Assembly (NCBI RefSeq): GCF_008124835.1
Contig: NZ_VNHW01000001.1
Span: forward strand, 186,001-250,000
Length of the DNA: 64,000 nucleotides
Direction of reading: 5' to 3'
Source of the DNA: Blastococcus xanthinilyticus
GTDB taxonomy: Bacteria > Actinomycetota > Actinomycetes > Mycobacteriales > Geodermatophilaceae
Shown here: positions 6,284-21,170 of the stretch, piece by piece
Layout of the letters: each line of letters opens with the position of its first letter
Position numbering within the stretch: position 1 is the stretch's first letter
Made by a program: the position numbers and the translations under genes
The notes under the pieces: generated by a model
What the model was told of the DNA's origin: nothing
What the model saw: only the letters and a program-made list of their open reading frames with translations
Database searches by the model: none

Positions 6284-6284
6284 G

Positions 6285-6418: not shown

Positions 6419-6480
6419 GCACGAACCTCCGTTGAGAGAACGAGAACGATGACGGCGGACGGGATCGACGATCCACCGGC

Positions 6481-9400
6481 TCAGCCGATGACGGCGATCA
6501 GGTCGCCGCCTTCGACCTGTTGGACGGGCCCGATGGCCAGGCGCTGCACGGTGCCTGCGACAGGCGCGGTGACGGCAGCCTCCATCTTCATGGCCTCGAT
6601 CGTGGCGATCGACTGCCCGGCGTCGACGCGAGCGCCCTCGACGACCTGGAGCGTCACGACACCGGCGAACGGTGCGGCGACCTGACCGGGATCGTCGCGG
6701 TCGGCCTTCTCAGCAGCCTTGACCTGCGCGTCGACCGAGCGGTCGCGCACGCTGACCGGCCGCAGCTGCCCGTTGAGTGTGCCCATGACCGTGCGCATGC
6801 CCCGCTCGTCGGGGTCGCCGACCGCCTCGATGCCCAGCAGGAGCGTCACCCCGGGCTCGAGGTCGACGGCGTGCTCCGTCCCGGCGCGCAGGCCGTACAG
6901 GAACTGCTCGGTCGGCAGCACCGACACGTCGCCGTACTGCTCCTGGTGGGCGGAGAAGTCGCGGGTGGGCGCCGGGAACAGCAGGCGGTTGAGCGTCTCC
7001 CGTGGCGCCTCTGCCAGGCCGCGGACGTCGTCGTCGGTGAGCTCGGCGGGTGGCCCGGCGGGGCGGCGGCCCTCCAGCGCACGGGCGCGGAATGGCTCCG
7101 GCCAGCCGCCGGGCGGGTCGCCGAGCTCCCCGCGCAGGAAGCCGATCACCGAGTCCGGCAGGTCGTACTTCCCCGGATCCGCCGCGAAGTCCTCCACGGT
7201 CACGCCCGACCCCACGAGCTGCAGCGCCAGGTCGCCGACGACCTTGGACGACGGGGTGACCTTGACCAGCCGGCCGAGCAGCCGGTCGGCGGCGGCGTAG
7301 GCGTCCTCGACCTCCTCGAATCGCTGCCCGAGCCCCAGCGCGATCGCCTGCTGGCGCAGGTTGGACAGCTGCCCGCCGGGGATCTCGTGGGTGTACACCC
7401 GCCCGGTCGGTGCGGGCAGCCCAGACTCGAACGGCGCGTACACCCGCCGCGCCGCCTCCCAGTAGGGCTCCAGGTCGTTCACCGCGGCAAGGTCCAGTCC
7501 GGTGGCCCGCTCCGTGGCGTCCGTGGCGGCGACGATCGCCGACAGCGGCGGCTGGCTCGTCGTACCGGCCATCGAGGCCACCGCGCCGTCGACGGCGTCC
7601 ACCCCCGCCTGCCACGCGGCCATCAGGGTGGCCAGCTGGCCGCCGGCGGTGTCGTGGGTGTGCAGGTGCACGGGCAGCTCGAACCGCTCGCGCAGCGCGG
7701 TGACCAGGCGGGCGGCCGCCGGCGGGCGGAGCAGGCCGGCCATGTCCTTGATCGCCAGCACGTGGGCGCCGGCGCCGACGATCCGCTCGGCCAGCCGCAG
7801 GTAGTAGTCGAGGGTGTACAGATCCTCCCGCGGATCGGAGAGGTCGCCGGTGTAGCAGAGCGCCACCTCGGCCACCGCCGTCCCCGTGCCGCGGACCGCA
7901 TCGATGGCCGGGCGCATCTGCTCGACGTCGTTGAGCGCGTCGAAGATCCGGAACACGTCGATGCCGGTGGTCGCCGCCTCGCGGACGAAGGCCTCGGTGA
8001 CCGCCTCCGGGTAGGGCGTGTAGCCGACGGTGTTGCGTCCCCGGAGCAGCATCTGCAGGCAGACGTTGGGCACCGCCTCCCGGAGGGCTGCCAGCCGGTC
8101 CCACGGGTCCTCGTGCAGGAACCGCAGGGCGACGTCGTAGGTCGCGCCGCCCCACGCCTCGAGGGAGAACAGCTGCGACGTCGTGCGAGCCACGTGCCCG
8201 GCCACGGCGAGCAGGTCCTTGGTGCGCACCCGGGTGGCCAGCAGCGACTGGTGGGCATCGCGAAACGTGGTGTCCGTCACCGCCAGCGCGGTCTGCGTCC
8301 GCAGATCGGCGGCGAAGCGCTCCGGGCCGACGGCGAGCAGCCGCTGCCGGGAGCCGTCCGGCGGTGGGGTGCGCAGGTCGACGGCGGGCAGTTTCGCCAC
8401 CGGGTCGACCAGGTGCGGGGGCTCCCCGTGCGGCCGGTTCACCGTGACGTCGGCCAGGTAGGTCAGCAGTCGGGTGCCGCGGTCGGCGGAGGTCCGCGCG
8501 ACCAGCAGGTGCGGCCGCTGCTCGATGAACGACGTCGTCACCCGGCCGGCGGCGAAGTCCGGGTCGTCGAGCAGCGCCTGCAGGAACGGGATGTTGGTGG
8601 CCACGCCGCGGATGCGGAACTCGGCCACTGCCCGGCGGGCCCGGGCCACCGCGGCGGGGAAGTCGCGGCCGCGGCAGGTCAGCTTGACCAGCATGGAGTC
8701 GAAGTGCGCGCCGACCTCGGCGCCCAGCGAGGGCCCGCCGTCCAGCCGGATCCCGGCTCCGCCCGGGGACCGGTAGGTGGTGATCCGGCCGGTGTCGGGA
8801 CGGAAGCCGTTGGCCGGGTCCTCCGTGGTGATCCGGCACTGCAGCGCTGCGCCGCGCAGCTGGATCGCGTCCTGGGTCAGACCGAGGTCGGGAAGGGTCT
8901 CCCCTGCCGCGATGCGGAGCTGGCTCTGCACCAGGTCGACGTCGGTGACCTCCTCGGTGACCGTGTGCTCCACCTGGATCCGCGGGTTCATCTCGATGAA
9001 GACGTGCCGGCCCTGCCGGTCGAGCAGGAACTCCACCGTCCCGGCGTTGACGTAGCCGATGGCACGGGCGAAGGCGACCGCATCCGCGCACATCCGCTCC
9101 CGCAAACCCTCGTCGAGGTCCGGGGCCGGCGCGAGCTCGACCACCTTCTGGTGACGGCGCTGCACCGAGCAGTCCCGCTCGAACAGGTGCACCACGTTCC
9201 CGGCGCCATCGGCCAGGATCTGCACCTCGATGTGCCTCGGCTCGACGACGGCCTGCTCGAGGAAGACCGTCGGGTCCCCGAACGCCGACTCCGCCTCCCG
9301 CATCGCCGCCTGCACTGCGCCCGACAGCTCCTCCTGCGACTCGACACGACGCATCCCGCGCCCACCGCCGCCGGCAACCGCCTTGACGAACACCGGGAAC

Positions 9401-9855
9401 GGCAGCTGCCCGGCCGAGGCCAGCAGGGTGTCGAGGTCGGCGCTGGGCTCGGTCGAGGCCAGCACGGGCAGGCCGGCCGATCGTGCCGCCGCGATGGCAC
9501 GCGCCTTGTGGCCGGTCAGCTCCAGCACCGATGCCGGCGGCCCCACGAAGGTGATGCCGGCCCGCACGCACGCCTCGGCGAGCTCCGGGTTCTCCGAGAG
9601 GAAGCCGTAGCCGGGGTAGACGGCGTCCGCACCCGACCGCTGCGCGGCGGAGACGACCTCGTCGACCGACAGGTAGGCCCGCACCGGGTGCCCCTCCTCG
9701 CCGATCTGGTAGCTCTCGTCGGCCTTCAGCCGGTGCACGGAGTTGCGGTCCTCCCACGGGAAGACCGCAACCGTGCCCGCGCCCAGTTCGTACGCCGCGC
9801 GGAACGCGCGGACGGCGATCTCCCCGCGATTGGCCACGAGGACCTTGGAGAACAT
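6481..9855 (-). CDS. pyc: pyruvate carboxylase
   Basis: A 1124-residue single-chain pyruvate carboxylase, full length for the family; it makes oxaloacetate from pyruvate, bicarbonate and ATP. The biotin carboxylase domain fills about residues 1-450 (MFSKVLVANRGEIAVRAFRA start, GGGGRGM ATP loop, EMNPRIQVEHTVTEEV), the carboxyltransferase domain about 520-830 (TDTTFRDAHQSLLATR, then KDMAGLLRP and HLHTHDT), the tetramerisation region follows, and the biotinyl domain closes the protein with EAMKMEA (biotin on Lys1090). The ATG at 9855 has GGGAGGC 4-10 nt upstream. A DoxX gene lies 35 bp upstream on the same strand. Lying beside an aromatic-degradation island, it could refill the TCA cycle from pathway pyruvate; that is inference. 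Confidence 0.97.
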   Translation of the reverse strand: MFSKVLVANRGEIAVRAFRAAYELGAGTVAVFPWEDRNSVHRLKADESYQIGEEGHPVRAYLSVDEVVSAAQRSGADAVYPGYGFLSENPELAEACVRAGITFVGPPASVLELTGHKARAIAAARSAGLPVLASTEPSADLDTLLASAGQLPFPVFVKAVAGGGGRGMRRVESQEELSGAVQAAMREAESAFGDPTVFLEQAVVEPRHIEVQILADGAGNVVHLFERDCSVQRRHQKVVELAPAPDLDEGLRERMCADAVAFARAIGYVNAGTVEFLLDRQGRHVFIEMNPRIQVEHTVTEEVTDVDLVQSQLRIAAGETLPDLGLTQDAIQLRGAALQCRITTEDPANGFRPDTGRITTYRSPGGAGIRLDGGPSLGAEVGAHFDSMLVKLTCRGRDFPAAVARARRAVAEFRIRGVATNIPFLQALLDDPDFAAGRVTTSFIEQRPHLLVARTSADRGTRLLTYLADVTVNRPHGEPPHLVDPVAKLPAVDLRTPPPDGSRQRLLAVGPERFAADLRTQTALAVTDTTFRDAHQSLLATRVRTKDLLAVAGHVARTTSQLFSLEAWGGATYDVALRFLHEDPWDRLAALREAVPNVCLQMLLRGRNTVGYTPYPEAVTEAFVREAATTGIDVFRIFDALNDVEQMRPAIDAVRGTGTAVAEVALCYTGDLSDPREDLYTLDYYLRLAERIVGAGAHVLAIKDMAGLLRPPAAARLVTALRERFELPVHLHTHDTAGGQLATLMAAWQAGVDAVDGAVASMAGTTSQPPLSAIVAATDATERATGLDLAAVNDLEPYWEAARRVYAPFESGLPAPTGRVYTHEIPGGQLSNLRQQAIALGLGQRFEEVEDAYAAADRLLGRLVKVTPSSKVVGDLALQLVGSGVTVEDFAADPGKYDLPDSVIGFLRGELGDPPGGWPEPFRARALEGRRPAGPPAELTDDDVRGLAEAPRETLNRLLFPAPTRDFSAHQEQYGDVSVLPTEQFLYGLRAGTEHAVDLEPGVTLLLGIEAVGDPDERGMRTVMGTLNGQLRPVSVRDRSVDAQVKAAEKADRDDPGQVAAPFAGVVTLQVVEGARVDAGQSIATIEAMKMEAAVTAPVAGTVQRLAIGPVQQVEGGDLIAVIG

Positions 9856-9890
9856 GCCGCCTCCCGGCTTCGTCGACCGTCCCGGCCCGG

Positions 9891-10286
9891 TCACGGGCGG
9901 TCGAGGACGGCGAAGAGCAAGCCGCCGATCATCGCGAGGTTCTTGTGGAACTGGATGCGCTGCATCTTGCGGGCGGCCGGGTCCTCGATGGACCAGAAGG
10001 CGTGGCCGGCCAGCGTGGTGGGGACCATCGAGCCGGCGAGTGCCAGCGCCGAGAGCCGCGGCAGCACGCCCAGGGCCAGCAGCGCACCGCCGCCCAGCTG
10101 GACGGCGGCGTTGGCCCGGACGACCAGTTCGTCGTCCGCGGGCATGGGGAGGGCCCGACGCATCAGCGCCAGCGTGGGGCCGGCCTGGTCGACCCGCCCC
10201 CCGGGGGTCCGGAGAGCGTCGGCGCCCAGCAGGGCGTAGGTGGATCCGCTCAGGACACGGGCGAGCGCACGCAAGGGGGTGGGCAC
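9891..10286 (-). CDS. DoxX family membrane protein
   Basis: A 131-residue protein with four likely membrane segments, the usual DoxX size. The GTG at 10286 follows AGGAGCTG at good spacing; the frame is open upstream but without similarity. The segments LGGGALLALGVLPRLSALAL and MIGGLLFAVL, with HAFWSIEDPAARKMQRIQFH between them, are characteristic. DoxX-like proteins have been linked to thiol/redox complexes at the membrane, but most, including this one, have no assigned function. Probably cotranscribed with pyc. Confidence 0.8.
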   Translation of the reverse strand: MPTPLRALARVLSGSTYALLGADALRTPGGRVDQAGPTLALMRRALPMPADDELVVRANAAVQLGGGALLALGVLPRLSALALAGSMVPTTLAGHAFWSIEDPAARKMQRIQFHKNLAMIGGLLFAVLDRP

Positions 10287-10356
10287 GGGGTCAGCTCCTG
10301 GGATAGGCGTCGAGGCGTGGTGGAACAGGTGGAGGGCACGGCACCGACGTGCCCGC

Positions 10357-11067
10357 TCAGGCGACCTCGCTCGAGGACTCGCCCGGGTCGTGCTCGTCGA
10401 CAGCGCAGGTGACCAGCAGACCGGCGGTGTGCTCGATGTGCTCGGCGAGCAGCCGGCCGGCTTCGGCAGGGTTTCGTGCCACCGCTGCGTCGCGCAGCGC
10501 CCGGTGCTCGCCGGCCACGTCCCGATCGGGCTCGTTGCCGAGGGATACCGACCAGCGGCGGTAGAGCTCGGCCTCCTCGCGCAGGCTCGAGGCCATCTCG
10601 AGCAGCCGGCGGTTGCCACACCCCTCCAGCAGCGCCCGGTGGAAGTCGGCGTGCGCGGCCGCCCACTCGTCGCTGAGCTGGTCCTGCTCGTCCGGGATGT
10701 GCAGCGGTGTGCGTTCCAGGAGGTGGTGAGCCGCCATGACGCGGGACTCCCAGGCGAGATCGCCGTCCTCCACCGCGCGACGGAACACCAGCACCTCGAG
10801 GTCGACCCTTGCCGCCGTCAGCTCCCGGAGGTCGCTGTGGGACAGCGGCGTCACGACGAAGCCCTGGTGCGGCTGCACCTGCGCCAGCCCCTGCGACACG
10901 AGGCGGCCGAGCGCCTCGCGGAGGACGCCCGCGCTCACCCCGTACGTCGCGATGAGCTCGGGGAACTTGAGCCGCTGGCCGGGACGCGAGCGCCCGGCGA
11001 GCACCTCGGTGCGCAACCGCGCGTACACCTCGTCCGCCCGCGTTCCGCCGGATCCGCTCTTGGTCAT
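10357..11067 (-). CDS. GntR-family regulator, FadR/FCD subgroup
   Basis: A 236-residue repressor with an N-terminal winged helix (about residues 10-72, including ELIATYGVSAGVLREALGRL) and an all-helical FCD ligand domain (about 80-225) with metal-ligand candidates Asp/His in DFHRALLEGCGN and EHRALRDA. FCD regulators commonly bind carboxylic acids. It is divergent from the fumarylacetoacetate-hydrolase-type gene, and an AT-rich palindrome (11101-11114) lies between them. It most likely controls the catabolic genes to its right. Confidence 0.9.
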   Translation of the reverse strand: MTKSGSGGTRADEVYARLRTEVLAGRSRPGQRLKFPELIATYGVSAGVLREALGRLVSQGLAQVQPHQGFVVTPLSHSDLRELTAARVDLEVLVFRRAVEDGDLAWESRVMAAHHLLERTPLHIPDEQDQLSDEWAAAHADFHRALLEGCGNRRLLEMASSLREEAELYRRWSVSLGNEPDRDVAGEHRALRDAAVARNPAEAGRLLAEHIEHTAGLLVTCAVDEHDPGESSSEVA

Positions 11068-11100
11068 GGGGACAACCTAACTGATTTCTTATCTGGTGCC

Positions 11101-11114
11101 TACTTTCGAAAGTA
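11101..11114. promoter_or_regulatory. palindromic operator candidate for the GntR regulator
   Basis: TACTTTCGAAAGTA is a perfect 14-bp palindrome placed 34 bp upstream of the GntR ATG and about 90 bp before the GTG of the divergent gene. It sits in one of the few AT-rich patches of the window (11075-11115), as expected for a promoter/operator. Confidence 0.55.
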
Positions 11115-11201
11115 GACATCTTGTGGTTCCGTGTGCTCCATCGCACGTGGCGGCGGATCGACCGTCGGAGCCGGTGCGGAACCCGACTGGAGGAGATCCT
11201 C

Positions 11202-12062
11202 GTGCGTATCGCCAACCTCGCCGGCCGCCTGGTCCTGGTCACCGCTGACGGCGGTGCTGCTCTCGATGTCGAGCGCGCCAGTGGGGGCCGGTTCGGTCCC
11301 GACGTCCAGGCCGTCTACGACCGGTGGGCCGAGTTCAGCGAATGGGCCCCGAGCGCCGACCTGTCGGGTGCCGAGCGGTTCGCCGTCACGGACCTGGGTG
11401 CGCCCGCGCCGGCGCCGCGGCAGGTGCTCGCCATCGGGCTGAACTACTCCGAGCACGCCGCCGAGTCCGGCTTCGCCGTGCCCGACGCCCCCACCGTGAT
11501 GTTCACCAAGTGGGCGTCCTGCCTCACCGGCCCGGTCACCACCGTCGAGCTGCCGCCGGGCGGCAACACCGACTGGGAGGTCGAGCTGGTCGCCGTCATC
11601 GGCAGGACCGCCCGCAACATCAGCGAGGACCAGGCCTGGCACCACGTCGCCGGGCTGACCGTCGGACAGGACCTCTCCGAGCGGATCACCCAGACCGCCG
11701 GCCCGTCCCCGCAGTTCAGCCTCGGCAAGTCCCTGCCCGGCTTCGGCCCGATGGGCCCCTGGCTGGCCACCCTCGACGAGCTGGAGAACCCCGACGACCT
11801 GGAGATCGGCTGCGCCATCGACGGCGAGACCGTGCAGAAGGGCCGCACCCGCGACCTGATCTTCTCCGTCCCCGCGATGATCGCCAAGCTCTCGGCCAAG
11901 CTGCCCCTGCTGCCCGGCGACGTGCTGTTCACCGGCACCCCCGCCGGCGTCGGCCTGGGCCGCAACCCCCAGCGCTTCCTGCAGCCCGGCGAGGAACTCG
12001 TCTCCACCATCAGCGGCATCGGCCAGCTGCGCCAGCGTTTCGTCGCCGCGCCTCCCGCCTGA
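11202..12062 (+). CDS. fumarylacetoacetate hydrolase family protein
   Basis: A 286-residue member of the FAH superfamily, which includes acylpyruvate hydrolases, fumarylpyruvate hydrolase and 2-oxo-hepta-dienedioate isomerase/decarboxylases of aromatic catabolism. The C-terminal FAH domain shows LAIGLNYSEHAAESG, MFTKWASCLTGP, the metal-binding DWEVELVAVIG (acidic pair) and the end motif LLPGDVLFTGTPAGVG. The GTG at 11202 follows GGAGATCCTC. First gene of the rightward hydroxylase/Dabb/amidohydrolase run. It probably cleaves or isomerises a ring-opened product; the exact reaction is not determinable. Confidence 0.88.
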   Translation: MRIANLAGRLVLVTADGGAALDVERASGGRFGPDVQAVYDRWAEFSEWAPSADLSGAERFAVTDLGAPAPAPRQVLAIGLNYSEHAAESGFAVPDAPTVMFTKWASCLTGPVTTVELPPGGNTDWEVELVAVIGRTARNISEDQAWHHVAGLTVGQDLSERITQTAGPSPQFSLGKSLPGFGPMGPWLATLDELENPDDLEIGCAIDGETVQKGRTRDLIFSVPAMIAKLSAKLPLLPGDVLFTGTPAGVGLGRNPQRFLQPGEELVSTISGIGQLRQRFVAAPPA

Positions 12063-12145
12063 TCGTCCGTCCGGCCGACCAGAACCACGCACTCCCCCGC
12101 GGCCTCGCGCCGCCCGTCCGTGTTGCGCGAGAACAGGAGAACGCC

Positions 12146-13738
12146 ATGAGCACGGTGCACGACGTCGCCATCGTCGGTTTCGGCCCCGTGGGCCAGATGC
12201 TGGCCCTGCTGCTGGGACGACAGGGACACGATGTCGTCGTCCTGGAACGCCAGCCGGCGCCGTACCCGCGGCCCCGGGCCGTGGTGTTCGACAGCGAGGT
12301 CGGCCGCCTGTTGCAGTCGGCCGGGATCGCCGACCGGCTGCGGGACATCTCTGCGCCGGTGCCCGACCACTACGAGTGGCGCAACGCGGCAGGTGAGGCG
12401 CTGGTCCGGATCGACTGGAGCGGGCCGGGTCCCGGGGGCTGGCCGGTGGTGAGCTTCTTCACCCAGCCGCAGCTGGAAGAGGTCCTGGCGGCGGCGGTGA
12501 CGGAGGTCGACACCGTCCGGGTGCACCGGGGAGCCGAGGTGCGGCAGCTCGTGAACCACCCCGACCACGTCGAGCTGACGTGGAGCGGGCCCACGGTCAA
12601 GGCGCACACCACGCGCGCCCGCTACGTGATCGGCGCGGACGGCGCCAACAGCTTCGTCCGCCAGCACATGCGCACCCGCACCGAGGACCTGGGCTTCTTC
12701 TTCGACTGGCTGATCTGCGACCTCGTCCCGAAGGACGACGAACCGTGGACCGGCCCGATGAACTGGCAGCTCTGCGACCCGGCCCGACCCACCACGCTCG
12801 TCTCGGGCGGTCCCGGGCGCCGGCGCTGGGAGTTCATGCGGCTCCCCGGCGAGACCGTCGAGGAGCTCAACACTCCCGAGACCGCCTGGCGCCTGCTCGA
12901 GCCCTGGGGCCGCACCCCGGAGAACAGCACCCTGGAGCGGCACGTGGTCTACACGTTCCAGGCCCGCTGGGCCGAGCAGTGGAACGAGGGGCGGCTGCTG
13001 CTGGCCGGCGACGCCGCCCACCTCATGCCGCCGTTCGCCGGGCAGGGCATGTGCTCGGGCATCCGCGACGCCGCCAACCTGGCGTGGAAGCTCGACCTGG
13101 TGCTGCGGGACCGTGCTCCCGAGGCACTGCTGGACAGCTACACCGAGGAGCGGCGCGCCCACCTGCAGCACGCCATCCACATGTCCGTCGAGCTCGGCAA
13201 GATCATCTGCGTGCTCGACCCCGAGCTCGCGGCGGAGCGAGACGCCCGCATGATCGCCGGTGGCGCCGACCCCGCCGTCGTGATGCCCGAGCCGCCACCG
13301 AGCGGGCTGAGCGGTGGGATCGTGCACCGCGACGCGGCGGGCGCCCCCTCGCCGGGGGCCGGGGAACTGGGCGAGCAGCACCCCGTCCGGCGCGGTGCGG
13401 ACGAGCGCCTGCTGGACGAGCTGCTCGACGGACCGGGCTTCACCCTGCTCACCGACGGCCTCTCCGCGACCGATCTCAGCGACCCGGCACGGGAGCTGCT
13501 GGCCCGGTGGGACGTCCGGGTCGTCCCGCTCTCCAGCCCGGGGAGCGACGACGGGGACCGCTACGTCGACGTGCACGGCGGCTACCTGCCCGCGATGCGC
13601 GCAGCGGGGCAGGTGGCGATGCTGGTCCGGCCGGACTTCTACCTCTTCGGGCGTGCCGATCGCGACGGGGTCGACCGCCTCCTCGGGGACCTGGACGCCC
13701 AGCTGAGCACGGCCGCGCCGGCCGGCATCACGGGGTAG
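12146..13738 (+). CDS. FAD-dependent aromatic hydroxylase (MhpA/PheA type)
   Basis: A 530-residue class A flavoprotein monooxygenase that hydroxylates an aromatic ring with NAD(P)H and O2. FAD-binding GFGPVGQMLALLLGRQG is at residues 12-28, the DG motif region is YVIGADGANSFVR near 164-176, and GDAAHLMPPFAGQGMCSGIR near 288-307 binds the FAD ribityl/phosphate. The C-terminal ~130 residues look like the thioredoxin-like domain of 3-(3-hydroxyphenyl)propionate hydroxylases. The ATG at 12146 has AGGAGA 5-11 nt upstream. A second, different hydroxylase is encoded at 17241-18938. Confidence 0.9.
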   Translation: MSTVHDVAIVGFGPVGQMLALLLGRQGHDVVVLERQPAPYPRPRAVVFDSEVGRLLQSAGIADRLRDISAPVPDHYEWRNAAGEALVRIDWSGPGPGGWPVVSFFTQPQLEEVLAAAVTEVDTVRVHRGAEVRQLVNHPDHVELTWSGPTVKAHTTRARYVIGADGANSFVRQHMRTRTEDLGFFFDWLICDLVPKDDEPWTGPMNWQLCDPARPTTLVSGGPGRRRWEFMRLPGETVEELNTPETAWRLLEPWGRTPENSTLERHVVYTFQARWAEQWNEGRLLLAGDAAHLMPPFAGQGMCSGIRDAANLAWKLDLVLRDRAPEALLDSYTEERRAHLQHAIHMSVELGKIICVLDPELAAERDARMIAGGADPAVVMPEPPPSGLSGGIVHRDAAGAPSPGAGELGEQHPVRRGADERLLDELLDGPGFTLLTDGLSATDLSDPARELLARWDVRVVPLSSPGSDDGDRYVDVHGGYLPAMRAAGQVAMLVRPDFYLFGRADRDGVDRLLGDLDAQLSTAAPAGITG

Positions 13739-13746
13739 GCGCTGCC

Positions 13747-14046
13747 GTGGCGATCCAGCACCTGGTCACCTTCACCTGGCGGGACGGCACCACCGCCCGC
13801 GACGTCGCGGAGCTCGAGCGCGCCCTGCGGGACCTCGTCGGGACCTTCGGGGGCATCGAGTCCTGCGACATCGGCGTGCCCCGCACGCTGGTGGCATCCC
13901 GGTCCGCCCCCGAGAGCCGAATGCAGTTCGAGGGTGCCGGCCCGACGCCGGCCGCCCCGCACCACCGCCCCGTCGTGGAGGCCGATGACTTCGGCCCCGC
14001 GCAGTGGCGCGCCGCCGTCCTCTCGACCGTGCAGGTGAACTCATGA
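13747..14046 (+). CDS. small Dabb-type (stress-responsive A/B barrel) protein
   Basis: A 99-residue protein starting at GTG 13747, 8 nt after the hydroxylase stop and overlapping the next gene by 4 nt (ATGA), so it belongs to the operon. The first half, IQHLVTFTWRDGTT and then ELERALRDLVGTFGGIESCD, fits the dimeric ferredoxin-like Dabb fold. The middle (about residues 45-75, SRSAPESRMQ onward) does not show the usual second beta-alpha unit, although PHHRPVVEA and the final TVQVNS resemble the family end. The centre may be altered by compensating frameshifts. Role unknown; Dabb-fold enzymes act on cyclic or phenolic intermediates in some pathways. Confidence 0.6.
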   Translation: MAIQHLVTFTWRDGTTARDVAELERALRDLVGTFGGIESCDIGVPRTLVASRSAPESRMQFEGAGPTPAAPHHRPVVEADDFGPAQWRAAVLSTVQVNS

Positions 14047-15026
14047 CGACACCCACCCCCGCCGACCAGTTGATCGACGTGCACGCGCACTTCGTCACCG
14101 ACCGCTACGTGGCCGCCGCACGGGCGGCGGGTCACGAGTTCCCGGACGGCATGGCGGAGTGGCCGAGCTGGGACGTCGGCACGCACCTCGCACTCATGGA
14201 CCGCGCCGGGATCCGGACCTCGGTCCTGTCGATCTCGTCGCCCGGCACGCATTTCGGCGACGACGACGCCGCGCGCGAACTGGCCCGGGAGGTGAACGAG
14301 TTCGCCGCCGGCATCGTGCGCGACCACCCCGGGAGGTTCGGTTCCTTCGCCTCGCTGCCGCTACCCGACGTCGAGGGTTCGCTGGCGGAGCTGGCGTACG
14401 CCCTCGACGTCCTCGGCGCGGACGGCGTGGCAGTGGAGACCAACGCACACGGCACCTACCTGGGTCATCCTGCTCTCGAACCGGTCTGGGCCGAACTCGA
14501 CCGCCGCGGCGCGGTCACCTTCGTCCATCCGACCTCGCCGCCCCGCTGGGAGGCGGTCTCGCTCGGACGGCCACGGCCCATGCTGGAGTTCATCTTCGAC
14601 TCCACCCGCACGGTCGCCGACCTCGCGCTGAGCGGCGTCCTGGCCCGCTACCCCCGGATCCAGTGGGTGTTCACGCACGGAGGCGGCGCACTGCCCCTGC
14701 TCGCAGACCGGATCGAGCTCTTCCGCACCGTGTTCGGCGGCGGCGACCCGGCCGGCGACGACGGAGGCCCGGTGCCCGAACAGCTCCGCCGGCTGTGGTT
14801 CGACATGGCCGGTACGCCGTTCCCGCGGCAGGTCCCGGCCCTGACCGCGGCCTTCGGCGACGAGCACCTGCTGTACGGCAGCGACTGGTGCTGGACGCCC
14901 TTCGACGGCGCCCTCGCGCAGGTCGCCTCGATCGACGCCGCGGAGCAGCCGCCGCGGGACACCTGGCGCGCGCTCACGACCCGCAACGCGACAGGGTTGC
15001 TGCCCCGGCTCGCCCGCGGGGACTGA
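14043..15026 (+). CDS. amidohydrolase of the ACMSD / aromatic decarboxylase family
   Basis: A 327-residue TIM-barrel metalloenzyme. The N-terminal DVHAHF motif (His14, His16), VHPTSPP (His162), FTHGGGALPLLADRIE and the late GSDWCW (metal Asp) are the signatures of the 2-amino-3-carboxymuconate-semialdehyde decarboxylase group, which also holds gamma-resorcylate and 5-carboxyvanillate decarboxylases. It therefore most likely decarboxylates an aromatic acid or ring-opened acid, or hydrolyses a related substrate. Start ATG 14043 overlaps the Dabb stop. It ends at a strong hairpin shared with the convergent gene. Confidence 0.85.
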   Translation: MTTPTPADQLIDVHAHFVTDRYVAAARAAGHEFPDGMAEWPSWDVGTHLALMDRAGIRTSVLSISSPGTHFGDDDAARELAREVNEFAAGIVRDHPGRFGSFASLPLPDVEGSLAELAYALDVLGADGVAVETNAHGTYLGHPALEPVWAELDRRGAVTFVHPTSPPRWEAVSLGRPRPMLEFIFDSTRTVADLALSGVLARYPRIQWVFTHGGGALPLLADRIELFRTVFGGGDPAGDDGGPVPEQLRRLWFDMAGTPFPRQVPALTAAFGDEHLLYGSDWCWTPFDGALAQVASIDAAEQPPRDTWRALTTRNATGLLPRLARGD

Positions 15027-15045
15027 CGCGGGAGGAGCGCGCCCA

Positions 15046-15088
15046 CCGCCGTCGTCCGCCCCGATACCTCAGGGGCGGACGACGGCGG
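15046..15088. terminator. bidirectional hairpin terminator
   Basis: A perfect 17-bp stem (arms 15046-15062 and 15072-15088; core CGTCGTCCGCCCC) with a 9-nt loop sits between the convergent amidohydrolase genes. There is no long T-tract, which is common in high-GC actinomycetes. Confidence 0.8.
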
Positions 15089-15089
15089 G

Positions 15090-16211
15090 CTAGATGCCGG
15101 CCTGGATGCCGGCGCACCACACGGCGCGGACGGCCCGCGTCGCCCGGATGTCGGCCACGGGATCGCCGTCGAGGAGGACCAGGTCGGCCCTGCGGCCGGG
15201 AGCGATCACTCCCCGGTCCGTCAGGCCGAAGTGCTCGGCCGGCAGGACGGTGGCCGCCCGCAGCGCCTCGACGGTCGACAGGCCGGCGTCGACGAGGAGC
15301 TCGAGCTCGCTGTGGAGTGCCACCCCGTGCGGAACGTTGGCCGGCGCGCCGGGATCGAGGTTCGCGTCGGTACCGGCCAGGACGGGCACGCCCTGGCGGT
15401 GCAGCTCGGCGACGGAAGCGCGGGCGCGGACGAAGTCCACCGGCGGCCCCCCCGGTGCGCGGCCGAGGACGTCGGCGACCGCCGACATCATGGTGAGGGT
15501 CGGAACGGCGGCCACTCCCCCGGCGACCATCCGCGCGACCAGGTCGGCGTCCAGCGGCCGGCCGATCGGCACGTGGGTGACGATGTCCACGCCCGCGCTC
15601 ACCGCCATCTCCGTCGCCAGGGGGCTCGTCGCGTGGGCGATCGTGCGCAGCCCCCGGGCTCGGGCCGCGGCGGCCAGCGCGTCGAGCCTCGGCTGGTCCA
15701 GCGCCGCCGGACCCACGAGGGTCGGGTCCTCCACGATGAGCTTGACGTAGTCGACCCCCTCGGCGGCCCGGGCAGCGACGAACGCCTCCGCCTGCTCGGG
15801 CCCCGCGAGGGCCGAGTCGGGCGGATAGCCCATGTGGGTGGTGTGCGGACCGCCCGGCGCGCTGGCCGGGGCCCCGGCGCTGCGGACGTCGGTCCGGCCG
15901 GGCCGGTGCCGCAGCGAGTCGATCAGCGACGGCGGCCAGCTGGCCATGTCCAGCACGGTGGTCACCCCGGCGTCGCGGCTCCGGTCGAGGTCCTCCGGCG
16001 TGCGCACGTGCACGTGGGCGTCGATGAGCCCGGGCAGCAGCGTCCCGCCCGCCCCGTCGACCACGGTGGCGCCGCTGGGGTCGCCGCCGTCGAGGTCGAC
16101 GATCCGGCCGTCCTCGATCACGACGGTGGTGAGGTCGGTCAGCCCCCAGCCGTCGAAGACGCGCACGTTCGTGATCGCCGTACGGCCGGTGCCGCCGTGG
16201 ATCGGATCCAT
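15090..16211 (-). CDS. metal-dependent amidohydrolase (imidazolonepropionase/prolidase-like)
   Basis: A 373-residue amidohydrolase with a small N-terminal beta domain, the LPGLIDAHVHV metal motif (near residues 59-69), YVKLIVEDP (candidate bridging Lys), RTIAHATSP, DIVTHVPIG, and GTDANLDPG (catalytic Asp) near residue 275. It closes with the typical GRRADLVLLDGDPVADI. Such proteins hydrolyse cyclic amides, lactones or peptides in the cytosol; this one may open a lactone or imide in the neighbouring pathway, but the substrate is unknown. Same strand as the extradiol dioxygenase and second hydroxylase and probably cotranscribed with them. Confidence 0.82.
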   Translation of the reverse strand: MDPIHGGTGRTAITNVRVFDGWGLTDLTTVVIEDGRIVDLDGGDPSGATVVDGAGGTLLPGLIDAHVHVRTPEDLDRSRDAGVTTVLDMASWPPSLIDSLRHRPGRTDVRSAGAPASAPGGPHTTHMGYPPDSALAGPEQAEAFVAARAAEGVDYVKLIVEDPTLVGPAALDQPRLDALAAAARARGLRTIAHATSPLATEMAVSAGVDIVTHVPIGRPLDADLVARMVAGGVAAVPTLTMMSAVADVLGRAPGGPPVDFVRARASVAELHRQGVPVLAGTDANLDPGAPANVPHGVALHSELELLVDAGLSTVEALRAATVLPAEHFGLTDRGVIAPGRRADLVLLDGDPVADIRATRAVRAVWCAGIQAGI

Positions 16212-16275
16212 CCTGGTACTCCTCTCGATCGCAACCCGCAGCCGCTGCGTCGGCCGATCGGGCGCAGGGTGCGGG

Positions 16276-17199
16276 TCAGGCGTTGCTGTGGGCGCCGGTC
16301 ATGAGGGCGGCGAGGTCTTCAGGCTTGAGGAAGGACGCCGGCGGCGGCGGGCCCCAGTTGAACAGGCCCTTGGCGCCCTCGAGGATCTCCGGGGTCCAGA
16401 GCTGGTCGTCGACGATGCAGTCCATGTCGGAGTAGTACTCGGAGAAGTTGCCGGCGGGGTCCTTGAGGTACCAGAAGAAGTTGGAGCCGGCGTGGTGGCG
16501 TCCCAGGCCCCACACGTGCCGATCGGGGTCGTCCTCGAGCATGGCCATGGCGCCGCGGCCCACCTCGTCGACGTCGTCGACCTGCCAGGAGGAGTGGTGC
16601 AGGAAGGTGACCGGGGCGCGCAGCACGAGCAGGTTGTGGTGGTCGACCGAGCACCGCATGAACGCGCCTTCGCCCTTGATGACGTCGGACAGCTTGAACC
16701 CGAGGCCCTCGGTGAAGAACGCCTGGGTGACCGCGACGTCGGTGGAGCCGACGACGACGTGGCCGAGCTTGCGCGGCTGGACGCGGTCGGTGCGCAGCAC
16801 GCCCGGCGCGCGGGCGCCGGTGCGCTCGTAGCGGCCCGGGCCGTTGTAGGCGGTGGCCGCCACCGCGTTCTGCTCCACCCGCGGGGCGATCTCGACGGTG
16901 GCGCGCACACCGGTGGCCTTCTCGGTGGCGGTGACGGCGGCCGGGCCCGCGACGGCGCCGATGCCCATGCGGCGCAGGTTGCTGGCGACGCGGGCGATGT
17001 CGTCGGCGTCGTCGGCGCCGACGTGCAGCTCCACCAGCCGGCGGGTCGGTGTCGCGACGATGCGCAGCTGGCGGCCCCCGTCGCGGGTGGCGAACCAGCC
17101 GTCCCCGACCGGGGTGAGCCCGAAGTCGGTGTAGTAGGCGGCGGTCTCCTCGACGTTGGGCACGCCCATGGTGATCGAGGTGAGGCGGTGCAGAGCCAT
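16276..17199 (-). CDS. type I extradiol ring-cleavage dioxygenase (VOC family)
   Basis: A 307-residue two-domain vicinal-oxygen-chelate protein of the 2,3-dihydroxybiphenyl/catechol 2,3-dioxygenase group, which meta-cleaves a catechol with Fe(II) and O2. The C-terminal domain carries the ligands: His147 in KLGHVVVG, His201/202 in FLHHSSW and Glu254 in FSEYYS, in the same order and spacing as BphC (146/210/260). The N-terminal domain lacks them, as usual. It lies between the amidohydrolase and the second hydroxylase on the same strand, so hydroxylation followed by ring cleavage is likely. Confidence 0.9.
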   Translation of the reverse strand: MALHRLTSITMGVPNVEETAAYYTDFGLTPVGDGWFATRDGGRQLRIVATPTRRLVELHVGADDADDIARVASNLRRMGIGAVAGPAAVTATEKATGVRATVEIAPRVEQNAVAATAYNGPGRYERTGARAPGVLRTDRVQPRKLGHVVVGSTDVAVTQAFFTEGLGFKLSDVIKGEGAFMRCSVDHHNLLVLRAPVTFLHHSSWQVDDVDEVGRGAMAMLEDDPDRHVWGLGRHHAGSNFFWYLKDPAGNFSEYYSDMDCIVDDQLWTPEILEGAKGLFNWGPPPPASFLKPEDLAALMTGAHSNA

Positions 17200-17240
17200 G
17201 ACGATGCTTCTCTCGTGGAGGGGGCGGTCGGTCGGGTGGA

Positions 17241-18938
17241 TCAGTCAGCGCGGCTGAGGTGGGCGGCGGACGGCCGGTCGGCGTCCGTCGCGGGGTCGAT
17301 GTGGACCGCGCCTCGGACGTGGTCCAGCAGTGGGCCGGGGTCGGCGGGGAGCTCGTCGTCCCGCCAGGCCACCAGGGCGTCGGGCCGGACGAGCAGGTAG
17401 CGGGCGCCGAAGAGGGCGTGCGCGTCGGGACGGTTCAGCCGGAGCACCTGCAGCGGCAGCCCTCGCCTCGCGGCCGCGGAGCGCCAGGACTCCGACGCCG
17501 GGGATGCGCCGACCTCCAGCAGGGTCAGTCCCGGACCGAGGCGGTCGTACAGCGACTCCCCGGGGGCCGGCCACAGGTGCGGCAACCGCATGCCGGGCGC
17601 GGCCGACGGCCGGTAGACCGAGGTCTCCGACGCAGGTGCGGGACGGTCGTCGGGGACGACGCGGGGGGACTCCGGGCAGCCCGTGCCCAGGACGAAGCCC
17701 GAGGTGTACATCTCCGACGTCTTCGCCCGCCGGACGGCGTCGGCAGCGGCGAGGCGCGCATCGTGTGCGGCGGGCCCGTCACCGTCGAGGTCCGGGCGGG
17801 CCAGTTCCGGCGTCAGCACCGCCATGTTGCGCTCGGCCTCGGCGATGGCCGCAGCGGCCACGGGCCTGCGCTCGGCCTCGTAGGAGTCCAGCAGCTGCTC
17901 ACCACCCCAGCCGGAGAGGTGGGCGGCGAGCTTCCAGCCGAGGTCGACGGCGTCGCCGATACCGGTGTTGGCCCCGAACCCTCCCCAGGGCGGGTTGAGG
18001 TGGGCGGCATCGCCGAGGAGGAAGCAGCGCCCGTCCCGGTAGCGGTCGGCGATGAGCATCCGCGCCGTCCAGGGATCCTGGGAGCGGACCTGGATCGGCA
18101 CGTCCGCGCCGACCATCGTCCGCAGTGCCTGCTCGGTCCACCCCGGCGTCGCGTCCAGGGGTGCACCGATGATGATCGCCCACCAGCTGTCCGCGGTGTC
18201 CAACCGGCCCAGCAGACCGCTGACCTCGGGGTTGAGCACCCAGTACTGCACGGCCCGGCCCTGCGGGTGCCGCTCCCCCAGGCCGGGGGCGTCGAAGACC
18301 GCCTGCAGGTTCGGGATCGCGTGGGTCCGCCCCCCGAGCGGGATGCCCAGGGTGCGGCGCACGCCACTGCGGCCGCCGTCGGCGGCGGCGAGGTACCGAC
18401 CGCGGACGAGCGAACGGTGGCCCTCGGCGTCCTCGACGGTGACGTGCACCGACGTCCCGTCCTGCTCGACGTCCACGACCCGCTCGCCGTACCGGGCGGT
18501 GACGGTGGGACGGTCGGCCAACGTCTCGCGCAGCGCTGCCTCGAGGCGGTACTGAGCCGTCCACTGCGCGGGCTCGGGAAGCTCCGAGCGGGGCACGTCG
18601 GACAGGGCGAACACGCCGTCGAACCGCTCGATCTGGTGCCCGGTGAGGCTGGTGCAGAAGACGGCGGAGTCCGACCAGCCGAACGGCAGCTCCGAGGCGG
18701 CACGGACGGCGTCGGCGATCCCGAGCCGGCGGAAGTGCTCCATCGACCGCGGGTTCACCTGCTTGCACCGCGGGGACGACCTGTCCGGCTCGGTGCGCGG
18801 CTCGATCAGCACGACGTCGATCCCGCGGCTGCCGAGCTCGTGGGCCAGCGTGAGACCGACGGGGCCCCCGCCGACGACGACGACGTCGGTCTCCACGACA
18901 TCGGGGGCCGGCTGTGCGGCTCGGGAGGCTGCGCTCAT
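17241..18938 (-). CDS. FAD-dependent aromatic hydroxylase, second copy
   Basis: A 565-residue class A flavoprotein monooxygenase related to but clearly different from the one at 12146. GGGPVGLTLAHELGSRG binds FAD near residues 22-38, YLAAADGGRSGVRRTLG holds the DG motif, and GDAAHLNPPWGGFGANTGIG the second FAD motif. The C-terminal part resembles the thioredoxin-like domain of phenol hydroxylases. ATG 18938 was chosen because the 92 upstream codons of the open frame show no similarity. Its start is divergent from the IclR gene, which probably regulates it. Confidence 0.9.
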   Translation of the reverse strand: MSAASRAAQPAPDVVETDVVVVGGGPVGLTLAHELGSRGIDVVLIEPRTEPDRSSPRCKQVNPRSMEHFRRLGIADAVRAASELPFGWSDSAVFCTSLTGHQIERFDGVFALSDVPRSELPEPAQWTAQYRLEAALRETLADRPTVTARYGERVVDVEQDGTSVHVTVEDAEGHRSLVRGRYLAAADGGRSGVRRTLGIPLGGRTHAIPNLQAVFDAPGLGERHPQGRAVQYWVLNPEVSGLLGRLDTADSWWAIIIGAPLDATPGWTEQALRTMVGADVPIQVRSQDPWTARMLIADRYRDGRCFLLGDAAHLNPPWGGFGANTGIGDAVDLGWKLAAHLSGWGGEQLLDSYEAERRPVAAAAIAEAERNMAVLTPELARPDLDGDGPAAHDARLAAADAVRRAKTSEMYTSGFVLGTGCPESPRVVPDDRPAPASETSVYRPSAAPGMRLPHLWPAPGESLYDRLGPGLTLLEVGASPASESWRSAAARRGLPLQVLRLNRPDAHALFGARYLLVRPDALVAWRDDELPADPGPLLDHVRGAVHIDPATDADRPSAAHLSRAD

Positions 18939-19008
18939 GCCGGAAGTCTCGGTGGGGTGACGGGGGCCACAACACGGTGGTTTCATCCAGTGGACCGATC
19001 GGGAGGAG

Positions 19009-19815
19009 ATGGCGGTGGCGGGACGACCTGCGGCAGCCGACGGTGCGGCGCCGGGCGAGGCGGTCATCGACCGGGCGCTGCGTCTGCTGGCGGCCTTCGA
19101 GAACCGCGGCGACGCGTTGTCGCTCGCCCAGCTCAGCACCCGGGCCGGGTTGCCGAAGGCGACGACGCTGCGGCTCGCTCGCCGGCTCGCGGCCTGGGGC
19201 GCCCTGGAGCGCACGGGGGACGGCGACTACGTGATCGGCCTGCGACTGCTGGAGGTCGCTTCGCTCTCCCCCCGGGGCCACGGGCTGCGGTCGGCCGCGC
19301 TGCCGTTCATGGAGGACCTGCACCACGCGACCGGACAGCACGTGCTCCTCGCGGTCCGGGACGAGCGGGAGGCCGTCCTGGTCGAACGGTTGTCCGCGCA
19401 CCGGGCGGGACAGGTCCTCTTCCGGGTCGGCGGCCGAATCCCCCTGCACGCCACCGGCGTGGGGCTTGTGCTTCTCGCGTTCGGCCCCCGGGAACTGCAG
19501 GAGGAGGTGATGGCCGGAGATCTGCCGCTGCCGGCGGAGCGGCGCAGCCTGTCCCCCGACGAGCTCCGGCGGACCGTGGCCCGCGTGCGACGGGAAGGCG
19601 TGGCCGTGGCGTCGCTGCAGCACCCCGAGCCGATGTCATCGGTGGCGGCGCCCGTCCTCGACGGCCAGCAGACGGTCATCGCCGCGCTGTCGGTCGTCGC
19701 CCCGACCGCGTCGCTGCAACCGGCGACCATCGCTCCGGCCGTCGTGGCGGTGGCGCGGGCGGTATCCCGCGCTGTTCAGCGCAGCGGTCCGCGCCTACCC
19801 CTGACGTCTGGCTGA
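19009..19815 (+). CDS. IclR-family regulator
   Basis: A 268-residue regulator: winged helix at about residues 18-78 (LAQLSTRAGLPKATTLRLAR) and an IclR effector domain (about 90-255; LHATGVGLVLLAF is diagnostic). IclR proteins typically govern aromatic or acetate pathways and bind pathway intermediates. GGGAGG ends only 2 nt before ATG 19009; a GTG at 19015 in the same frame sits 8 nt after it and is a likely true start, shortening the protein by two residues. Divergent from the second hydroxylase, upstream of the aromatic acid transporter. Confidence 0.9.
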   Translation: MAVAGRPAAADGAAPGEAVIDRALRLLAAFENRGDALSLAQLSTRAGLPKATTLRLARRLAAWGALERTGDGDYVIGLRLLEVASLSPRGHGLRSAALPFMEDLHHATGQHVLLAVRDEREAVLVERLSAHRAGQVLFRVGGRIPLHATGVGLVLLAFGPRELQEEVMAGDLPLPAERRSLSPDELRRTVARVRREGVAVASLQHPEPMSSVAAPVLDGQQTVIAALSVVAPTASLQPATIAPAVVAVARAVSRAVQRSGPRLPLTSG

Positions 19816-19916
19816 CGGCTCGTACCACTGGGTGAAATTGCCCTGGGTGCGCCGGATCACCGCCTCGCACTCTCTCCCCACGCAGTGATCCCGCTCACTC
19901 CTGGAGGAAATCCGTC

Positions 19917-21170
19917 ATGGCCACCGGTACCCCGCAGCACCAACGATCAGGGCCCGTCCTGCTGCTCGGCGTGCTCGTCCTCTTCATCGACGGGTACGAC
20001 CTGTTCATCCTCGGCGCCGTCGGTCCTTCCCTCCTCCAGTACGAGCCCTGGGGCGCCACCCCGGCCACCCTCGGCATGCTGGGCAGCATCACCGCGGTCG
20101 GCGGCGCCCTGGGTGCCGTGGTCGCGGGGTGGGCCGGCGACGTCTACGGCCGCCGGCTGCCGATGATGCTCAGCCTGGCCTGGGTCTCGCTCTGGATGGC
20201 GGCCTCGGCGGTCGCCCCCAGCCTCGGGCTCTTCGCCTTCACGCGCTTCGCCGTCGGCATCGGCCTCGGCGCGCTGATCCCGCTGGTGGTCGCGGTCGTC
20301 ACGGAGGCCGCCCCGTCCACCCGCCGCAGCCTGTGGGTGGGGATCGCGATGACCGGTGTCGCCTTCGGCGGCCTGGGTGCCGCGTTCGCCGCTCGCGCCC
20401 TGCTCGGCTCGGCACCCTTCCAGCAGCTGTTCCTGATCGGCGCGGTCGCCGTCGTGCTGCTCCCGCTCGTCTGGCGCCTGGTCCCCGGGGGTGCCCCGGT
20501 GGTCCACCTGGCGTCCGAGCTCTCGCCCGCGGCCACCGGTAGCCGGGCCGCCCAGCTGCTCGCCCCCGCGAACCGCCGGGCCACCCTGCTCTTCTGGGCC
20601 GCCACCTTCCTCGGCCTCGTCGTCGTCTACGGCGCCAGCACCTTCCTGCCGACGCTCATGGTCAACGCCGGCTACGACCTGAACTCCTCGCTCGAGTTCC
20701 TCATCACGTTCAACGCCGGCGCGATCCTCGGCACCCTGGTCGTGACCGCACTGGCCGACCGTGGCCGTCTCCAGGCCATCACCGTCGGCTGCGCGCTGGT
20801 CGCCGCCGCCGCCTTCCTGGTGCTCTCCACGCCGCAGGCACGCTGGCTGCTGCTGGTCATGGCTGCGGCTGCGGGTCTGGGCGCGCTGGGCACGCAGAAC
20901 CTGGTGAACAGCTACGTGGCCCGCTACCACGAGCCGCGGCTGCGCGGCACGGCGCTGGGCTTCAGCCTGGGCGTCGGACGGCTCGGCGCGATCGCCGGAC
21001 CGCTGTACCTGTCTGCGGTCACCGTCGCGTTCACCTCCCCGAAGGCAGGCTTCTACGCCTTCATCGTGCCCGCGGTGCTCGGGGCGCTCGTCATCTCACT
21101 CATCCCCCGGCAGCGAACCGAGCACTTGGTCCGGGCCGCCCCGGGCGTCGCGGCGCCGGCGTCCATCTGA
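19917..21170 (+). CDS. MFS transporter, aromatic acid:H+ symporter (AAHS) type
   Basis: A 417-residue, twelve-segment permease. FIDGYDLFILGAVGPSLLQ in the first helix is the hallmark of the AAHS group (the DGxD motif), with GWAGDVYGRR as loop 2-3 motif A and a second GTLVVTALADRGRL motif between helices 8 and 9. Relatives import benzoate, hydroxybenzoates, protocatechuate or related acids with protons. ATG 19917 follows GGAGGAAATCCGTC. It should supply the island's substrate. A strong hairpin follows the stop. Confidence 0.9.
   Translation: MATGTPQHQRSGPVLLLGVLVLFIDGYDLFILGAVGPSLLQYEPWGATPATLGMLGSITAVGGALGAVVAGWAGDVYGRRLPMMLSLAWVSLWMAASAVAPSLGLFAFTRFAVGIGLGALIPLVVAVVTEAAPSTRRSLWVGIAMTGVAFGGLGAAFAARALLGSAPFQQLFLIGAVAVVLLPLVWRLVPGGAPVVHLASELSPAATGSRAAQLLAPANRRATLLFWAATFLGLVVVYGASTFLPTLMVNAGYDLNSSLEFLITFNAGAILGTLVVTALADRGRLQAITVGCALVAAAAFLVLSTPQARWLLLVMAAAAGLGALGTQNLVNSYVARYHEPRLRGTALGFSLGVGRLGAIAGPLYLSAVTVAFTSPKAGFYAFIVPAVLGALVISLIPRQRTEHLVRAAPGVAAPASI

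Follow-up and report, generated by a model that had tools for sequence, protein, structure and literature searches.

A candidate phenolic-degradation island of Blastococcus xanthinilyticus with a recurrent actinobacterial FAH–EDO core

The window analysed here is a stretch of 64,000 nucleotides from Blastococcus xanthinilyticus (contig NZ_VNHW01000001.1, positions 186,001 to 250,000, assembly GCF_008124835.1), and its subject is a compact group of genes that encodes a fumarylacetoacetate hydrolase-family (FAH) enzyme, a two-domain type I extradiol ring-cleavage dioxygenase (EDO) and two class A FAD hydroxylases, termed HydA and HydB. The FAH–EDO core recurs across actinobacterial genera, soil actinobacteria among them, and its hydroxylase partners are exchanged from locus to locus. 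We read the group as a catabolic island for a phenolic compound, most likely of the resorcinol type (a 5-alkylresorcinol or its carboxylate, of the orcinol or orsellinate kind), ending in pyruvate and a 3-oxo acid, a reading to which we give roughly an even chance.

Gene content of the island

The following features were assigned, with bit scores of the family models in brackets.

6320..6418, minus strand: 3-oxoacid CoA-transferase A subunit, N-terminal relic (33 matching residues, one further codon, stop)
6481..9894, minus strand: pyruvate carboxylase, start uncertain (TIGR01235, 1411 bits, cut-off 1114), same direction as GntR
9891..10331, minus strand: DoxX-family membrane protein, start approximate (PF07681, 38.9 bits, cut-off 23.6)
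10357..11067, minus strand: GntR/FCD regulator (PF00392 and PF07729), divergent from FAH
11097..11118, no strand: candidate operator for GntR, a palindrome of 22 bases in which one pair is mismatched
11202..12062, plus strand: FAH-family hydrolase (PF01557, 213 bits), GTG start after GGAGGAG
12146..13738, plus strand: HydA, class A FAD hydroxylase of the MhpA-like subfamily (NF004829, 588 bits, cut-off 390)
13747..14046, plus strand: near-orphan open reading frame (ORF), coding-like, possible diverged or half Dabb domain (Dabb below cut-off)
14043..15026, plus strand: Amidohydro_2 (ACMSD-type) protein, possible decarboxylase (PF04909, 99.6 bits)
15090..16211, minus strand: AH1, Amidohydro_1 hydrolase (PF01979, 77 bits)
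16276..17199, minus strand: EDO, two-domain type I extradiol ring-cleavage dioxygenase (PF00903)
17241..18938, minus strand: HydB, second class A FAD hydroxylase, PRK06126 type (NF004780, 563 bits, cut-off 445)
19009..19815, plus strand: IclR regulator (PF01614 and PF09339), divergent from HydB
19917..21170, plus strand: MFS importer, resembling the aromatic-acid type (highest-scoring models AAHS and MhpT, neither over its cut-off)

A preliminary description of positions 10357-21170 had listed two hydroxylases, an EDO, an ACMSD-type decarboxylase, an FAH-type hydrolase, a second amidohydrolase, a Dabb protein, an AAHS importer and GntR and IclR regulators. Family models place every one of these genes where the description had put it, with the exception of the Dabb protein, and codon-position GC is of the coding type in all island ORFs of 10357-21170. 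The supposed Dabb protein scores 15.2 bits against the Pfam Dabb model (cut-off 25), with a match that covers residues 3-44 only, i.e. the N-terminal half. This 99-residue ORF, which overlaps the next gene by ATGA, has one homologue, 82% identical, in a search of 5.8 billion proteins. For the importer, the MFS gene itself stands; the match to the AAHS model (TIGR00895) reaches 204 bits against a curated cut-off of 418.6 and that to MhpT 162 bits against 410, so that the AAHS label is a matter of resemblance. The IclR regulator likewise stays under the cut-off of the PcaR/PcaU model (122 against 285 bits).

The Amidohydro_2 protein has the fold and the HxH, His and Asp of ACMSD-type decarboxylases, carried by the motifs DVHAHF, FTHGGG and GSDWC, which we take to bind metal. 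Its relatives of solved structure include many decarboxylases, also hydrolases and a hydratase, the top match being an unnamed metal-dependent hydrolase. In AH1 the motifs DAHVHV, YVKLI, IAHATS, VTHVP and AGTDAN could be read.

A conserved FAH–EDO core with exchanged hydroxylases

Relatives of EDO were collected by a pattern scan of 84,980 species genomes, which gave 308 stretches. The best 79 of these 308 loci were used, i.e. those closest to the window EDO with near-copies included, and the best match per locus was scored. Because the gene caller had mis-called some ORFs, the FAH and HydA genes of the window among them, counts were made by tblastn, with bit-score thresholds of our own choice. 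Neighbourhood was taken as within 8 kb of EDO; the end of the locus falls inside that distance in 17 of the 79. As controls, 20 stretches of 19 kb, taken arbitrarily from related genomes, were scored, and 8 of 40 listed plasmid loci were also examined.

In 67 of the 79 loci an FAH gene lies directly upstream of EDO on the same strand, and FAH is found within 8 kb in 70. None of the 20 random stretches contained FAH, EDO, the hydroxylases or the CoA-transferase/ligase at the thresholds used. Identity to the window ranges from 66 to 85% for EDO across the 79 loci and from 45 to 82% for FAH across the 70 that have it; in the plasmid loci it falls to 58 and 38%, respectively. Both window proteins are of the type found in the family Geodermatophilaceae, with 76–82% (FAH) and 80–85% (EDO) identity to the family loci. 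The metal site of EDO (H147, H201 and E254 by alignment with relatives of solved structure), the 2-His-1-carboxylate triad of type I extradiol dioxygenases, is invariant in 88 of 88 sequences, and residues D124, E126 and E128 of FAH are invariant in 64 of 64. The best solved-structure matches of FAH are 6v77, a 'putative HpcE' (345 bits), and 8gsr, an L-2,4-diketo-3-deoxyrhamnonate hydrolase (166 bits). The window thus carries homologous FAH and EDO genes in one cluster, as does the actinobacterial core module; it is an outlier in that the two lie 4.2 kb apart on opposite strands, rather than as an adjacent pair.

Per-genome counts by E value were made in 112 genomes of the family and 394 of the class, the own genome included in each, and are lower bounds, since few candidates were scored per genome (up to 20 for EDO and 13 for HydA in the family; 3 each for HydA and HydB and 5 for the Amidohydro_2 protein in the class). 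At 1e-80, EDO is present in at least 4 of the 112 family genomes. In the plasmid records examined, the core pair is annotated only as 'VOC family protein' and 'fumarylacetoacetate hydrolase family protein'. No description of an actinobacterial FAH–EDO module was found among the matches listed in the open-access literature, a search that leaves most subscription papers outside. Among the listed plasmid records with EDO at 60–80% identity, 16 of 26 are from Streptomyces clavuligerus. Plasmid pRHL2 of Rhodococcus jostii RHA1 carries a diverged core (EDO 58%, FAH 38%); in place of a 3-oxo-acid ligase, the genes that come after it encode an enoyl-CoA hydratase, an SDR and a thiolase.

Four classes of hydroxylase alternate beside the core, with at least one of them within 8 kb of EDO in 62 of the 79 loci and two kinds in four. 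HydA-like genes occur in 17 loci (14 at 58–68% identity and three at 42–46%), typically just downstream of EDO; HydB-like genes occur in 15 (one at 65% and the other 14 at 40–47%). A third type of class A is present in 13 and a group D two-component type in 21. In Actinomadura sp. OS1-43, FAH, EDO, HydA, HydB and MFS genes stand in a row, a precedent for two hydroxylases with one FAH–EDO core. In a tree of 88 EDO sequences the window EDO groups with that of Modestobacter lapidis (locus L003; support 100/94), the other nearby Geodermatophilaceae being L004 and L005, which have group D hydroxylases, and Blastococcus saxobsidens (L006), with none at threshold. When each tip was labelled with the best hydroxylase match anywhere in its locus, and 'none' was counted as a label, 29 label changes were needed, against a minimum possible of 5 and a mean of 54 for shuffled labels; the core is therefore partly linked to its hydroxylase, yet the partner has often been changed. 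The best relatives of the window HydA beside a core sit in other families, at up to 68% identity. At 1e-150, HydA was found in at least one of the family genomes (among the candidates scored, the own genome alone) and in at least two of the class genomes, where the second copy lies beside FAH and EDO; HydB, at 1e-160, was found in at least one class genome, the own.

In 24 of the 79 loci a GntR relative is encoded no further than 8 kb from EDO. The gap between GntR and FAH in the window holds the palindrome at 11097-11118, centred on CTACTTTCGAAAGTAG (11100-11115), and its core, TTTCGAAA, is also present in 14 of the 18 further gaps between divergent GntR and FAH genes, those of L059, L060, L091 and L094 being without it. 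The core occurs once in the window, where 0.01 occurrences are expected. The palindrome is a candidate GntR operator, through which GntR would control the FAH operon. IclR would control the EDO operon; no such palindrome was found in the gap between HydB and IclR.

The amidohydrolases accompany the core less often, the Amidohydro_2 protein in 4 and AH1 in 6 of the 79 loci. In Mycolicibacter heraklionensis, genes for a group D hydroxylase, AH1, an Amidohydro_2 protein, a CoA-transferase, FAH and EDO share one strand; the Amidohydro_2 protein there is more distant (161 bits) and falls outside the count of 4. On the Pseudonocardia plasmid pBCI1-2 both amidohydrolases are direct neighbours of an acetoacetate-CoA ligase, and FAH and EDO are encoded in that region too. 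From this distribution, the two look like optional front-end enzymes.

Predicted products and the lower meta pathway

The preliminary description had reported that the usual hydratase, aldolase and aldehyde dehydrogenase of the meta pathway are missing. For the aldolase and the acylating aldehyde dehydrogenase this is true of the island and, judged by model cut-offs, of the whole genome. No 4-hydroxy-2-oxovalerate aldolase (TIGR03217) scores over the cut-off in this genome, listed as 100% complete, where the best match reaches 53.7 against 286 bits; none of 14 built-in control genomes (E. coli included) passed the same model, and 4 of 4 added genomes with EDO loci did. Nor did any acylating acetaldehyde dehydrogenase exceed its cut-off in the genome, a weak negative given that none of the 14 controls did so either. 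Both of these enzymes of the classical catechol meta pathway are thus below cut-off here.

Genes that could handle a different product are linked to a minority of the cores. Of the 79 loci, 14 have a gene for a 3-oxoacid CoA-transferase or an acetoacetate-CoA ligase no more than 8 kb from EDO, and the ligase is present in 5 of the 8 plasmid loci examined (L087, L088, L090, L091 and L092), its gene overlapping the end of EDO by 11 bases in L087 and L088. Elsewhere in the B. xanthinilyticus genome, the cut-offs of the AACS and SCOT-A models are each exceeded by two matches. Taken with the relationship of FAH to a 2,4-diketo-acid hydrolase, this linkage fits the cleavage of a 2,4-dioxo acid to pyruvate and a 3-oxo acid. 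A third ring oxygen, giving on ring opening a 2,4-dioxo acid that FAH could cut, would explain why hydratase, aldolase and dehydrogenase steps are missing.

On the left, the island appears to extend further than the limits of 10357-21170 first drawn for it, which were too short. On the 3' side of GntR, and on the same strand, come the DoxX gene, the pyruvate carboxylase and, 62 bases further, the CoA-transferase A relic, which consists of the first 34 codons followed by a stop, is 64% identical to the CoA-transferase A of another EDO locus (L012) and scores 22.6 bits against PF01144, just below the cut-off of 23. An ORF overlapping it (6219-6452) matches the zipper of IS481-type elements at 23.3 bits, over the cut-off of 22.2. 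The remnant of an IS481-type transposase beside a cut-off CoA-transferase A suggests that the island has lost a CoA-transferase of its own. This truncated gene 3' of the pyruvate carboxylase indicates that the island probably starts near 6320, and 6320-10331 is probably part of it. In L047 and L066, CoA-transferase genes likewise lie 3' of GntR in the same direction. The pyruvate carboxylase itself likely belongs to the island, as judged by gene order: in M. lapidis L003 an 84% identical enzyme begins about 130 bases past the EDO match on the EDO strand, and in Gordonia asplenii L079 genes for FAH, EDO, a hydroxylase and a full-length pyruvate carboxylase (76%) are co-directional. These are the two of the 79 loci with a full-length copy downstream of EDO.

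The closest characterized route is encoded by hcdABC of Pseudomonas mandelii 7HK4, which serves degradation of 3-(2,4-dihydroxyphenyl)propionate; according to the available passages of that report, FAD-dependent ipso-hydroxylation gives a 2,3,5-trihydroxyphenyl compound, which undergoes type I extradiol cleavage before the FAH-family enzyme HcdC acts (PMC6222606). An HcdC extract did not decolourise the ring-fission products of plain catechols, and the trihydroxyphenyl-derived product vanished with HcdC (PMC6222606). The order of steps put forward in the preliminary description, extradiol cleavage followed by FAH-type hydrolysis in a catabolic setting, is backed both by this precedent (PMC6222606) and by the adjacency of FAH and EDO in 67 of the 79 loci.

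In the route that we propose, the substrate, for which an alkylresorcinol or resorcylate is our best guess, would be taken up by the MFS carrier, and where needed a carboxyl or an acyl or amide group would be removed by the amidohydrolases. HydA and/or HydB would then hydroxylate the ring to give three ring oxygens, EDO would open it by extradiol cleavage to a 2,4,6-trioxo-type acid, and the FAH-type enzyme would hydrolyse this to pyruvate and a 3-oxo acid. The latter would be activated by a CoA-transferase or an acetoacetate-CoA ligase acting in trans, since the local CoA-transferase is truncated, and the pyruvate could be taken on by the pyruvate carboxylase encoded nearby. All activities are predictions from gene content, and so are the substrate, the regiochemistry, the choice of bond that FAH would cut and the parts played by AH1, the Amidohydro_2 protein and the near-orphan ORF. 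The products may be pyruvate and a 3-oxo acid; because 3-oxo-acid genes are absent from most loci, we infer this from a minority of clusters, the chemistry of the enzyme family and one imperfect precedent.

Several observations weigh against this reading. FAH was not found by tblastn in 9 of the 79 EDO loci, none of the four hydroxylase classes lies within 8 kb in 17, and no 3-oxo-acid-activating gene does so in 65 at the chosen thresholds. In S. clavuligerus (L093), an EDO relative (69%) stands with neither FAH nor a hydroxylase in the stretch. The tie of the Amidohydro_2 protein to the core is loose: at 1e-80 it occurs in at least 18 of the class genomes, and the loci reached through it in the 17 others (in the stretch taken) contain EDO in no case, FAH in one and a CoA-transferase in one. 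The pyruvate carboxylase of the window (6481-9894) is the only full-length match in its genome, so its position may be coincidence, and among 37 control stretches one has a partial match (47%, the biotin-carboxylase part). No tested activity was found for this exact EDO family. The hcdABC authors, in the passages available, suggest succinate and an acetopyruvate-type acid, products that were not identified, and HcdB takes many plain catechols and not 1,2,4-benzenetriol (PMC6222606).

A wider proposal, which we hold tentatively and think somewhat doubtful, is that the core is an undescribed, mobile actinobacterial ring-opening funnel, in which a fixed FAH–EDO pair would convert varied tri-oxygenated rings to pyruvate and a side-chain 3-oxo acid, and hydroxylases and carboxyl-removing enzymes would be swapped to match the phenolics at hand (alkylresorcinols, lichen or fungal orsellinates). 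The window would then be a re-assembled case with two hydroxylases and a lost CoA-transferase. If the product logic holds true, a large group of genes would gain a function, and the use of phenolic natural products without a classical lower meta pathway would be explained.

Alternative routes and known systems

The main rival, which we consider unlikely, is a hydroquinone route, in which the hydroxylases would make a substituted hydroquinone, EDO would open its ring and the FAH-type enzyme would cleave a 4,6-dioxo acid. The ipp genes of Rhodococcus sp. D-6 may act in this way on 2-isopropylphenol, which counts against a resorcinol-type route here; they encode a group D monooxygenase, a flavin reductase, a RibB-like protein, an extradiol dioxygenase, an FAH-family protein and an acetoacetyl-CoA synthetase, and all are induced, as far as the available passages go (PMC12442392). 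The same kinds of gene occur together with the present EDO family at a Pseudonocardia plasmid locus (L090), and the 21 loci with a group D monooxygenase within 8 kb point the same way. MhpA-type hydroxylases usually hydroxylate ortho, which speaks against a hydroquinone intermediate. IppB, moreover, is a 23.4-kDa one-domain enzyme with 84% identity to BphC2, whereas EDO is a 307-residue two-domain protein, and the ipp authors propose another downstream route, the passages available containing no FAH or synthetase assay (PMC12442392).

Ordinary catechol meta-cleavage, with a lower pathway encoded elsewhere or missing, would suit the intact type I metal site of EDO and the MhpA-like character of HydA. 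We regard it as improbable in view of the sub-cut-off aldolase in a genome listed as complete, a model that the four added controls all passed and the 14 built-in ones did not; the dehydrogenase negative adds weakly to this, and HcdC ignored catechol ring-fission products in the passages available (PMC6222606).

Two further options are very unlikely. A biosynthetic tailoring or detoxification cluster for an antibiotic or other secondary metabolite is brought to mind by the nearest solved structure of HydB, the biosynthetic enzyme RebC (276 bits), and by the polyketide oxygenases among the solved-structure matches of HydA; what argues otherwise is that the genes are linked to ring cleavage, to FAH, to 3-oxo-acid activation and to an importer resembling aromatic-acid carriers, and no biosynthetic core enzyme was seen among the island ORFs examined. 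The HydA-like and HydB-like genes near EDO in 17 and 15 of the 79 loci also speak, indirectly, against hydroxylases of an antibiotic-modifying kind. Equally remote is an Fde/Ifc-type route for the A-ring of flavonoids or isoflavones, set apart by its description: that route likewise has a glyoxalase-type dioxygenase acting after an FAD hydroxylase, there on the A-ring, but the available text names cupin-family proteins and an alpha/beta hydrolase, does not contain the word fumarylacetoacetate and reports IfcA homologues from Proteobacteria (PMC11069340).

Among other published systems, riboflavin/lumichrome catabolism, which ends in acetoacetate and pyruvate, was rejected as a match: it employs P450, xanthine-oxidase and Rieske enzymes with a 46-kDa dioxygenase, and its FAH-like LumV has no essential role according to the passages available (PMC12746152). 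The 4-hydroxypyridine kpi cluster was rejected as well, its ring being opened by an amidohydrolase-family protein in the part of the source available (PMC7356986). The word fumarylacetoacetate is absent from the available texts on the Rhodococcus alkylphenol aph islands (PMC6710988) and on a biphenyl/flavone cluster (PMC8552027).

Outside the island, the window encodes a Polyketide_cyc2 (SRPBCC) protein (21896-22336, minus strand), an alpha/beta hydrolase with an N-terminal SnoaL-like domain (27194-28279, minus), a family 5 solute-binding protein (46445-48193, minus) and an aldehyde dehydrogenase (50052-51551, plus).

In gene content, the 3-hydroxyphenylpropionate (mhp) system of E. coli shares with the island an MhpA-like hydroxylase, an MhpT-like importer and an IclR-type regulator, and its dioxygenase is of another class than EDO. 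The island has no equivalents of MhpC, MhpE and MhpF and has an FAH-type hydrolase instead. A plasmid locus of Streptomyces sp. NBC_00015 (L091) has homologous GntR, FAH, EDO and HydA genes; unlike the window, its core pair is adjacent on one strand, a ligase is present and a second hydroxylase is absent from the stretch shown. Pseudomonas putida ORC degrades orcinol by hydroxylating it to 2,3,5-trihydroxytoluene, which undergoes extradiol cleavage to 2,4,6-trioxoheptanoate; this is then hydrolysed to acids, the same chemistry as proposed here. The ipp genes resemble the island in a flavin hydroxylase, an extradiol dioxygenase and an FAH-family protein, and also have an acetoacetyl-CoA synthetase; they differ in their two-component hydroxylase and in a one-domain dioxygenase acting on a hydroquinone, as described in the passages available (PMC12442392).

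Likened by kind of enzyme, hcdABC and the island share a class A FAD hydroxylase, a type I EDO and an FAH-family hydrolase, and in hcdABC a third ring oxygen is introduced, as we propose for the island, and the operon, as described in the available passages, is without hydratase and aldolase (PMC6222606). It is one operon with one hydroxylase, whereas the island has FAH and EDO on opposite strands and two hydroxylases, and the end products proposed are succinate and an acetopyruvate-type acid in the one and pyruvate and a 3-oxo acid in the other. The preliminary description had recognised no textbook pathway in the combination. To say that no known pathway fits would go too far, since hcdABC combines the three core kinds of enzyme found here, and the orcinol pathway has the same chemistry.

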